A DNA stretch of 35,445 nucleotides from a virus: positions 1 to 35,445 of the IMG/VR virus record IMGVR_UViG_3300025120_000007. One strand, 5' to 3'. Of this stretch, positions 27,815 through 34,432 are shown piece after piece; positions within the stretch are counted from its first letter, which is position 1, and the number at the start of each line of letters is the position of its first letter. The notes beneath the pieces are model-generated. The model ran no database searches. It saw only the letters and a list, made by a program, of their open reading frames with translations, and was not told the DNA's origin. A program made the translations under genes and the position numbers.

Positions 27815-27850
27815 AGTAACACAAGGCCCACCGTCCCCTCCCTCCCCCAG

Positions 27851-27944
27851 TTATACACAGGATATACAGAAGTTATCCACAGGATATCCACAGGTTATAC
27901 TTATCCACAGGATATACACAGGTTATACATTAGTTATCCACAGG
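27851..27944 (+). repeat. 11-bp iteron array with DnaA boxes (putative origin)
   Basis: Units start at 27851, 27862, 27873, 27884, then a 6-base partial at 27895, then 27901, 27912, 27923 and 27934. The consensus is WTATMCACAGG. TTATCCACA, the classic DnaA box, occurs exactly at 27873, 27901 and 27934, and TTATACACA at 27851, all in one orientation. Units at 27862 and 27923 are degenerate. One-turn phasing puts all boxes of a block on one face of the helix. Binding by host DnaA, or by a phage initiator, is inferred. Confidence 0.75.
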
Positions 27945-27977
27945 TTAAGTGTGTGGGTCTATACGGTACCCACTATA

Positions 27978-28010: not shown

Positions 28011-28104
28011 TGGTTACATATGCAATAGCTATGCCACATTAGCCAACATAATTAGATTGTTTAGTTATGTTTAACTTATGGTTTATGCTTTAATGTTATA
28101 AGAT

Positions 28105-28141
28105 TGCACCATTGTAGTGCGTTACGCACCATTGTAGTGCA
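28105..28141 (+). promoter_or_regulatory. Tandem NtrC-like enhancer sites 1 and 2
   Basis: Two identical 15-mers GCACCATTGTAGTGC at 28106-28120 and 28126-28140, 20 bases centre to centre (about two turns). The extended site 1 reads TGCACCATTGTAGTGCG. The known enteric NtrC consensus is TGCACCA-N3-TGGTGCA, so this differs by one base in the right half-site plus one flank base. They lie about 170-190 bases before the predicted sigma-54 start, a normal distance for enhancers. Confidence 0.7.
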
Positions 28142-28205
28142 TAGGTAAAAACACTATATATAACAATACATTAGCATATTATTGATTAAATAATAAGCAA
28201 AACAC

Positions 28206-28222
28206 TGCACCATTGTAGTGCG
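28206..28222 (+). promoter_or_regulatory. NtrC-like enhancer site 3
   Basis: A third exact copy of GCACCATTGTAGTGC at 28207-28221, flanked as in site 1, about 87 bases before the predicted start. Between it and the tandem pair, CATATTATTGATT (28175-28187) on the opposite strand is one mismatch from the IHF consensus, which would allow looping; in AT-rich DNA that alone is weak. Confidence 0.65.
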
Positions 28223-28269
28223 TAGGCTTTTTCTAGGTATTAGCTAAACCATTGATTCTATTGGGTTAT

Positions 28270-28293
28270 AAAGTTGGCACGCTGTTTGCATAT
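28270..28293 (+). promoter_or_regulatory. Sigma-54 (RpoN) -24/-12 promoter of the early operon
   Basis: TGGCACG (28275-28281), four bases, TTGCA (28286-28290) matches the published consensus mrNrYTGGCACG-N4-TTGCWNNw at every defined position, including the outer bases. GG and GC are separated by exactly 10 bases as required. Transcription should start near 28301, about 45 bases before the first early gene at 28346. I saw no other such match in the window. Confidence 0.85.
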
Positions 28294-28345
28294 ATATTAG
28301 GGAACCACTCACATAACGCCCTTATGGGCCATAGGAGCTACAGAG

Positions 28346-28537
28346 ATGAACGAGATAGAGTTGAGAAAAGTTAAAAAGGGCGATTCGTTTAAGCGGAAGC
28401 CAAACGCTAACAAGGAATATATTCGCGAACACTATAACCGCAAAGATATGTGGGGTCCGGCTGGTTTCTGCTGTTCAGATTGCGACGATATCGGTCGCAG
28501 TATACAACTCAAGCCATCAACCATTGTTTACGTTTAG
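28346..28537 (+). CDS. First early gene, conserved small phage protein, 63 aa
   Basis: A basic N-terminus (ELRKVKKGDSFKRKPNANKEY) and a C-terminal part with CCSDCDDIGRSIQL. Small phage proteins with the plan K-x-G-D-x-F-K-R-x-x-x-x-K-x-Y-x-R-x-x-Y and a later DD-I are common in T7-like genomes. TAGGAGC lies before the ATG. As the first gene behind the sigma-54 promoter it would be among the first proteins made. Function unknown; a small binding or takeover protein is possible. Confidence 0.65.
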   Translation: MNEIELRKVKKGDSFKRKPNANKEYIREHYNRKDMWGPAGFCCSDCDDIGRSIQLKPSTIVYV

Positions 28538-28549
28538 GGGTGTTTCATA

Positions 28550-29308
28550 ATGAGAAAGTTAACGACCAATAAGCCAAAGAGCAAAGCACCTAAACTGTCT
28601 GGGTTTGTGCTGTACGATGGCCCTAGCGTGCTAGACGGTAAACCCATTGTTGCCATTGCTACGCTATCCACGGCTAACGTTAAAACTGGCCCAATGGCGC
28701 AAGTGTGGATATTACGCGCCGACGTTAACCCAGTAATTGCAAGCAAAACCGGCGACGATGTAAGCATTTGCGGTACTTGTGTACATCGGCACAATACCGG
28801 CGGTAGTTGTTACGTTAATCTAGGCCAAGCACCTAATGCCGTTTATAAATCATATCAAAAGGGCAATTATTTGACATATGATGCTACTATACACGCCGAT
28901 TATTTTGTTGGTCGCAAGGTTCGATTAGGTGCGTATGGCGATCCGGCGGCGGTGCCTTTTGATGTCCTAAACAGCATCGCCAAGGTGTCATTAGGTCACA
29001 CTGGTTACACTCATCAAATACGCCATGTTAACTTCGACAAGCGTTATCTGACCATATGCCAAGTATCAGCCGACAGTCCTAAGCAAGCTCTAAAGTATCA
29101 ATTAATGGGTGCTAAAACCTTTAGAGTAGCAATGGCCGGTGATGCACTAGCAGACGACGAAACAGAGTGCTTAGCAGACAGTAAGGGTATACAGTGTGCC
29201 GATTGCTTGCTATGTGACGGTAACAAGCGTAATATAGCTATAACAGTCCACGGTTCACGGGCTAAAAACTTTAAAACCAGTTTAATACAAACAATCGAGG
29301 TGTCATAA
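28550..29308 (+). CDS. Conserved phage/plasmid protein (DUF7227-like), 252 aa
   Basis: I recognise the family pattern from phages and plasmids: LYDGPSVLDGKPIVAIAT, later QVWILRADVNP, SICGTCVHR, CYVNLGQAP and VRLGAYGDPAAVP, then GYTHQ. It has conserved cysteines (CGTC, later CADCLLC near residue 218-223) that could bind a metal or Fe-S cluster. I believe it has a DUF number (7227). The reaction is unknown. It is the longest protein of the early operon, which suggests a central early role. Start at ATG 28550, 12 bases after the preceding stop. Confidence 0.65.
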   Translation: MRKLTTNKPKSKAPKLSGFVLYDGPSVLDGKPIVAIATLSTANVKTGPMAQVWILRADVNPVIASKTGDDVSICGTCVHRHNTGGSCYVNLGQAPNAVYKSYQKGNYLTYDATIHADYFVGRKVRLGAYGDPAAVPFDVLNSIAKVSLGHTGYTHQIRHVNFDKRYLTICQVSADSPKQALKYQLMGAKTFRVAMAGDALADDETECLADSKGIQCADCLLCDGNKRNIAITVHGSRAKNFKTSLIQTIEVS

Positions 29309-32800: not shown

Positions 32801-34432
32801 ATGAAGCATCAACATAAAACTGAGTCTAAATTTGTCGGACATGAGCCATGCCCTAAGTGTGGCTCTAAGGACAATCTAGGTAGATACGATGACGGTCATG
32901 CTTTTTGCTATGGCTGTCAATACTATGAATTTGCTGATGACGATAAGAGAGATATATTGTCAGTAGGCATACTACATCGAGGATTAGAGATGACAGGTGT
33001 TGTAGCAGCTATACCTGAGCTTCGTTTATCTAAGGCCACCATGCAGTTGTATGGTGTGACCATAGAATACGATTCAGTGGGTAAGATAGTTAAGCACCAC
33101 TACCCTTACGTTGATAAAGGCACGAATGAAACCACAGGCACCAAGGTGCGAGTATGTGACTCAAAGCAATTCTTTGCTACAGGTGGTTTCCAGAATGTGG
33201 GTCTTTTTGGTCAACAGAAGTTTAAAGGTGGCGGTAGGTACATAACGATAACTGAGGGTGAGAAGGATTGTCTTGCAGTATCGGAGATGTTCGATAACAA
33301 GTGGCCCGTGGTGTCCATAAGATCAGGCGCACCTAACGCTTCTAAGGACATTAAAGAGAACCTAGAGTACCTAGAGTCTTTTGACAATGTTGTTATCTGT
33401 TTTGATAATGATAAGGCGGGACAGGACGCAGCTAATTCAGTGCTAGACCTGTTTACTCCTAACAAGGCAAAGAATGTTTTGTTACCCATGAAGGACGCCG
33501 CAGAGATGCTAGTGGCTAACAAGGTGACTGAGTTCGTCAAGGAGTGGTGGAACGCTAAGACCTATCAACCTGATGGTATTATCTCAGGCGTGGACACATG
33601 GGACATGATAACTGCCAGAGAAGACGTACTGGTATACCCTTACCCTTGGTCTTGTCTTAATGACCTTACATTTGGCTTTAGGGAGCGTGAGCTAGTGACA
33701 ATAACTAGCGGCTCAGGTATGGGTAAGAGTCAGTTAGTGAGAGAGCTAGAGCATTACATCCTAGATGCTACAGAGGACAACATTGGTATTTTAGCGTTAG
33801 AGGAAGATGTACCTAGAACTGCTCTGGGTCTTATGTCCATCGAAGCTAACGCACCCTTGCATCTCAGGGATGACTTTGACATTGAAGCTAAACGTGGTTT
33901 CTGGGAGCGTACTTTAGGTACTGGTAGGGTGTATCTATTCGATCACTGGGGTTCTACATCAGAAGACAATCTGTTAGCCAGAATACGCTACATGGCTAAG
34001 GGTCTTGACTGCAAGTGGATAATCCTAGATCATTTGAGTATAGTAGTTAGCGACCAAGACATAGCAGATGAGCGTAAGGCCATTGACAGCATAATGACCA
34101 ACCTCCGTAAACTGGTACAGGAGACAGGCGTAGGTTTGTTCCTTGTGTCACACTTGCGTAGGCCACAAGGTAAAGCACACGAAGACGGTGGACAAATATC
34201 CCTTGCTGAACTGAGAGGTTCTGCGGCTATCGCTCAGTTGTCCGACATGGTTATTGGTTTAGAGCGAGATCAACAGAACGGCGACCCTAGGATACGAAAC
34301 ACAACTACGGTGAGAGTATTGAAGAATCGCTTTGCTGGGCTTACTGGCCCTGCTTGCTACCTACATTACAATAAGGACACCGGACGTATGGAGGAGACAA
34401 CCTGTCCTCTGGATGATGGGGGTGAGTTTTAA
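32801..34432 (+). CDS. Primase-helicase (T7 gp4-like)
   Basis: A 543-residue bifunctional protein (T7 gp4A has 566). N-terminal zinc ribbon with Cys17, Cys20, Cys36 and Cys39; a TOPRIM primase domain with ITEGEKDCLAV near 147-157 and CFDNDKAGQDAA near 200-211; and a C-terminal RecA-like helicase with Walker A GSGMGKS (304-310), later LALEED and WIILDHLSIVV (Walker B) and an R-finger region near HLRRPQGK. It unwinds the fork and makes primers for the polymerase, whose start overlaps this stop in TAATG. Confidence 0.95.
   Translation: MKHQHKTESKFVGHEPCPKCGSKDNLGRYDDGHAFCYGCQYYEFADDDKRDILSVGILHRGLEMTGVVAAIPELRLSKATMQLYGVTIEYDSVGKIVKHHYPYVDKGTNETTGTKVRVCDSKQFFATGGFQNVGLFGQQKFKGGGRYITITEGEKDCLAVSEMFDNKWPVVSIRSGAPNASKDIKENLEYLESFDNVVICFDNDKAGQDAANSVLDLFTPNKAKNVLLPMKDAAEMLVANKVTEFVKEWWNAKTYQPDGIISGVDTWDMITAREDVLVYPYPWSCLNDLTFGFRERELVTITSGSGMGKSQLVRELEHYILDATEDNIGILALEEDVPRTALGLMSIEANAPLHLRDDFDIEAKRGFWERTLGTGRVYLFDHWGSTSEDNLLARIRYMAKGLDCKWIILDHLSIVVSDQDIADERKAIDSIMTNLRKLVQETGVGLFLVSHLRRPQGKAHEDGGQISLAELRGSAAIAQLSDMVIGLERDQQNGDPRIRNTTTVRVLKNRFAGLTGPACYLHYNKDTGRMEETTCPLDDGGEF

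Follow-up and report, generated by a model that had tools for sequence, protein, structure and literature searches.

A Putative Nitrogen-Stress Promoter Cassette, Exchanged for Sigma-70-Like Cassettes, before the Early Genes of a Group of Small Uncultured Phages

On balance we lean toward the view that early expression in a large group of uncultured phages is conditioned on host nitrogen limitation by an exchangeable nitrogen-stress cassette, made up of NtrC enhancers, an IHF site and divergent sigma-54 promoters, whose place is taken by a sigma-70 cassette in phages that are otherwise nearly identical. The whole stretch of DNA analyzed here (35,445 nucleotides; “the window”) is a complete phage-like genome with 127-bp direct terminal repeats, and the phages of this group are small (about 35 kb). 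Judging from its sequence, the region from 28106 to 28290 is very probably a host-type nitrogen-regulated promoter.

The plus strand of the window carries genes for a primase/helicase, an A-family DNA polymerase (which spans the ends of the record), an exonuclease, endonuclease I and ribonucleotide reductase, and the minus strand those for endolysin, large terminase (TerL), portal and virion proteins. The promoter region is the divergent intergenic stretch between these two blocks and adjoins a cluster of DnaA-box-like repeats. A gene of the T5orf172/MUG113 (GIY-YIG-type endonuclease) kind at 729–1388 adjoins the DNA polymerase gene, and the two largest unassigned ORFs had no Pfam match. The original prediction called this phage T7-like, and the replication set (primase/helicase, polA, exonuclease, endonuclease I) is indeed of T7 type; the label is nonetheless a loose one, since no gene for an RNA polymerase was recognized and the terminase matches among annotated phages all lie below 60% identity. 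The single-subunit RNA polymerase profile PF00940 had no match in 10 records, in a search where the control was also without a match. Two stretches of the window, used as queries, found no DNA-level relative among annotated phages. The features on which the argument rests are as follows.

27850–27958, plus strand: DnaA-box-like TTATCCACA repeat cluster, then the conserved AAGTGTGTG element (27947–27955)
28021–28036, minus strand: divergent sigma-54-like site TGGCATAGCTATTGCA, directed at the structural genes
28106–28120, no strand assigned: NtrC-type dyad 1, an exact copy of GCACCATTGTAGTGC; identical in L066 and L068
28126–28140, no strand assigned: NtrC-type dyad 2, GCACCATTGTAGTGC, 20 bp after dyad 1
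28207–28221, no strand assigned: NtrC-type dyad 3, GCACCATTGTAGTGC, 53 nt before the -24 TGG
28245–28257, minus strand: perfect IHF consensus AATCAATGGTTTA, between enhancer and promoter
28274–28290, plus strand: predicted sigma-54 promoter TTGGCACGCTGTTTGCA (-24/-12), with a start predicted near 28301
28346–28537, plus strand: first early ORF (63 aa), with AGGAG at 28333–28337
28550–29308, plus strand: second early gene, phrog_2554
32801–34432, plus strand: DNA primase/helicase, in the early-gene block that runs on into polA, exonuclease and ribonucleotide reductase

A perfect sigma-54 consensus at 28275–28290, with GG and GC 10 nt apart, had been proposed, and a pattern scan confirmed it: the window contains no exact TGGCAC-N5-TTGCW other than TTGGCACGCTGTTTGCA, which also fits YTGGCACR-N4-TTGCW at that spacing. 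The looser pattern TGGCAYR-N4-TTGCW occurs twice (28275 on the plus strand and 28036 on the minus strand), against a mean of 0.03 in 300 dinucleotide shuffles of the window. The elements originally described are all present, and what had been overlooked is the divergent minus-strand site (28036–28021) and the patchiness of the arrangement among relatives. In one relative, L068, this divergent site keeps its -24 and -12 parts, its spacer has changed and the flanking DNA on the terminase side has diverged. The first ORF preceded by a ribosome-binding site begins at 28346, about 45 nt past the predicted start, and had no Pfam or PHROG match; the phrog_2554 gene that follows it is also found in Klebsiella, Mycobacterium and other phages.

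All three dyads are, as predicted, exact copies of one sequence, and the dyad class GCACYANNNTRGTGC to which they belong occurs three times in the window and in none of 300 dinucleotide shuffles of it. The enteric NtrC consensus is TGCACCAnnnTGGTGCA (PMC8743547), and each 17-mer matches it at 12 of 14 defined positions, so that the dyads are close to the enteric site, as had been claimed, without being perfect. The IHF-like match placed between dyads and promoter also holds, as a zero-mismatch copy of the consensus WATCAANNNNTTR on the minus strand after dyad 3. NtrC-regulated promoters commonly, though not universally, have an IHF site in this position. Alone this consensus is weak; it gains weight because its position repeats in relatives, a perfect copy lying in the same orientation 30–32 nt upstream of the -24 TGG in 8 of 26 NtrC-type phage regions, where about 0.1 (0.12) would be expected.

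The same combination marks nitrogen genes in bacteria. A scan of species genomes from bacteria and archaea, 84,980 in all, for a degenerate dyad followed within 40–70 nt by TGGCAY-N5-TTGC gave 64 loci, nearly all of them in beta- and gammaproteobacteria. Fifty-six of these precede nitrogen genes (glutamine synthetase, glnA, in 49; PII in three; nitrate-transporter-like genes in three; an NtrB-like gene in one), as identified from sequence motifs rather than annotation. The gaps between dyad and sigma-54 site peak at 52–53 and 61–63 nt, about one helical turn apart, and the 53 nt of the window fall inside the first peak, that of bacterial glnA-type promoters; the glnA locus of Marinobacterium stanieri even has the exact 15-mer of the window. 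On this sequence evidence, together with the 12 of 14 match to the published consensus, the dyads of the window are NtrC-type sites. Of the 51 matches to the exact 15-mer in viral contigs, most are single copies with no sigma-54 site nearby, and these were set aside.

Among relatives whose TerL is about 50–95% identical, 38 contigs carry a dyad together with a sigma-54 site, and 38 of the 41 dyad-linked sites are directed at early genes; of the three that are not, two are the divergent site on the minus strand. Not counted here are joint-pattern matches such as L144, L149, L163, L166 and L176, which contain the motif in many copies and did not match the window in tblastx. A scan of relatives had been proposed as the check on the prediction, and it showed element and dyads conserved while flanks and spacer vary. 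In L066 and L068 (terminase 94% identical to that of the window) all three dyads are kept at identical spacing, TTGGCAC and TTGCAT are unchanged while all five spacer bases differ, and homology to the window stops just past the promoter. The triple-dyad layout recurs in divergent relatives (L006, L041, L050, L150, L168, L184, L204 and others, with terminases about 62–70% identical to that of the window) as two dyads 20–21 bp apart, a third 78–81 bp on and then the sigma-54 site; the remaining DNA has diverged and the dyads stand mostly in the opposite orientation to those of the window. Conserved in this triple-dyad lineage, a second -24/-12-like element lies just upstream of the dyads in the early-promoter direction (L006 13132, L050 3203, L168 456). 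Gaps between enhancer and promoter vary by lineage, from 9 to 155 nt, with most at 53–70.

In 148 phage elements chosen by GGCA-N7-TGC alone, with the other positions free, the unselected positions (Y at -21, R at -20, T at -16, W at -11) match the bacterial sigma-54 profile; at -11 A is favored among the phages and T in the bacterial set, which is a genuine difference, still within the A/T rule. Across 27 records there were 60-odd -24/-12 sites and none of the reversed pattern. The conserved element and dyads, and the same combination at bacterial nitrogen genes, support the original description of the region as a complete bacterial nitrogen-stress promoter.

The presumed partners are the NtrC, IHF and RpoN of the host, since neither the sigma-54 activator domain (PF00158) nor sigma-54 itself (PF04552) was found in any of 27 phage records, some of them fragments, in searches whose controls matched. 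A search for the host by TerL in 369 genomes of one class gave one match, 48% identical, with no such promoter in the 4 kb covered. When the host is short of nitrogen, the three dyads would be occupied by phosphorylated NtrC and the DNA at 28245–28257 bent by IHF, and the NtrC ATPase would open an RNA polymerase-sigma54 poised at 28274–28290, so that the early (replication) transcript would start near 28301 and be translated from 28346. The same enhancers could activate the divergent site at 28036, whose transcript might serve the structural genes or run through the origin. On this mechanism, infection would depend on the nitrogen state of the host.

The cassette is exchanged between phages, and the alternative to it is a sigma-70-like cassette. 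The window and its sister L063 have identical TerL proteins and DNA that is 96.8% identical over 6.6 kb and then replaced between about 27990 and 29877; the replacement in L063 contains a TTGACA motif together with a sigma-70-like site, TAGACA-N17-TATTAT. Since this sister lacks the whole cassette, the nitrogen cassette is not essential to the family. Another phage, L055, shares the second early gene (protein 94% identical) and has upstream of it a cassette like that of L063 and L067. These three nearly identical phages have an alternative early cassette with a conserved TTGACAT..AGACTATTGTGTTACTCGCGC. On a terminase tree (a quick tree, with pattern-selected loci included) the NtrC class needs at least 10–13 changes, and some phages of different classes have identical terminases. 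In a sample chosen by terminase only (93 dereplicated regions), a forward -24/-12 element was present in 38 regions (shuffles 0–1) and a reverse one in 18, and a dyad upstream of the sigma-54 site in only five (shuffles 0); sigma-54-type elements are therefore common and the full NtrC form a minority.

As a rule, lytic phages rely on strong sigma-70 promoters at the start. Together with the sigma-70-like cassettes of the sister phages, this favors the possibility that the sigma-54 promoter is real but accessory, the main early start being an undetected sigma-70 or other promoter and nitrogen only tuning the outcome. We consider this unlikely, though worth weighing: the plus strand has no sigma-70-like site of at least 9/12 between 27684 and 28560, and the best sigma-70 score of the window within 600 nt after the AAGTGTGTG element, 7.0, is among the lowest of the regions scored, its NtrC-type companions being likewise weak (7.0–9.0 with the window included).

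A different role for the -24/-12 element is suggested by arrays of it in some relatives. In the window, 27850–27958 is the probable replication origin; the conserved element there reads AAGTGTGTG..GGTACCC and is common to many, not all, relatives. Five relatives (L368, L335, L316, L372 and L373) have -24/-12 arrays of alternating orientation, with a period of about 47 bp and no dyads, and these lie on the terminase side of AAGTGTGTG, upstream of TerL, at the place where the window lineage has its DnaA boxes. The largest have up to six plus and three to four minus copies (up to nine elements), and adjacent copies are spaced too tightly for polymerase to occupy all of them simultaneously. Near-consensus sigma-70 promoters lie downstream of the arrays in L335 and L372. 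The dyad-less arrays may act as promoters that respond to another activator, or may have a role in replication, and the element may thus have a second role in the family. That TTGGCAYR-N4-TTGCW is at bottom an origin iteron, or an operator for another protein, with its sigma-54 likeness secondary, seems improbable to us: the degenerate positions agree with the sigma-54 profile, NtrC dyads and IHF sites stand at distances typical of promoters, and the window-type element occurs singly per direction, directly before early genes. The case for a promoter in the window stands despite the arrays because the element there is tied to NtrC and IHF sites, and it may be that some relatives use it as an iteron and others as a promoter.

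Three high-similarity sites per genome, presumably multiplied by replication, might also serve as a decoy that titrates host NtrC, but this is very improbable given that the dyads are coupled to sigma-54 sites at a set distance and orientation, which a decoy would not need. Chance resemblance, or a function of the dyads as terminators, we rejected as having next to no likelihood, for although the dyad at 28207 was flagged in a scan as terminator-like on either strand, dyads 1 and 2 are without T runs, the shuffles yielded no dyads and the dyads are conserved with sigma-54 sites across lineages.

The putative nitrogen-regulated promoter of the window has close counterparts in bacteria. The NtrC-activated sigma-54 promoters of the glnAp2, glnK and glnHp2 type share with the window the -24/-12 element, the IHF site and multiple enhancers (GCAC-N7-GTGC at about 53 nt); the window differs in that these precede the early genes of a phage instead of genes for nitrogen assimilation, and in its extra, divergent -24/-12 site. 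Among phages, T4-like marine cyanophages have NtcA-type promoters and likewise appear to exploit a nitrogen-stress regulator of the host for phage genes (PMC3037559), but NtcA is a cyanobacterial activator of the CRP family with sites scattered genome-wide, whereas in the window the system is that of sigma-54 and NtrC, dependent on enhancers and confined to one early promoter region. We found no phage with an NtrC/sigma-54 early promoter in the open-access literature, which is weak evidence of absence, most subscription journals lying outside that scope. Each component was already known; what appears to be new is their deployment as an exchangeable early promoter in phages.

Sigma-54 promoters require an activated enhancer protein to fire, and early genes placed under sigma-54 would therefore make infection conditional on host physiology. 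Phage sigma-70 early promoters, such as that of the L063 cassette, occupy the same place before the early genes; the sigma-54 type differs in being silent without its ATP-driven activator, which makes expression conditional. Since the layout recurs in dozens of relatives while near-identical ones carry a different promoter, these phages may tie infection to the nitrogen state of the host. If so, nitrogen limitation would be linked to virus production in bacteria besides cyanobacteria, and the sigma-54 and sigma-70 versions of nearly one phage would be natural pairs for a direct test.
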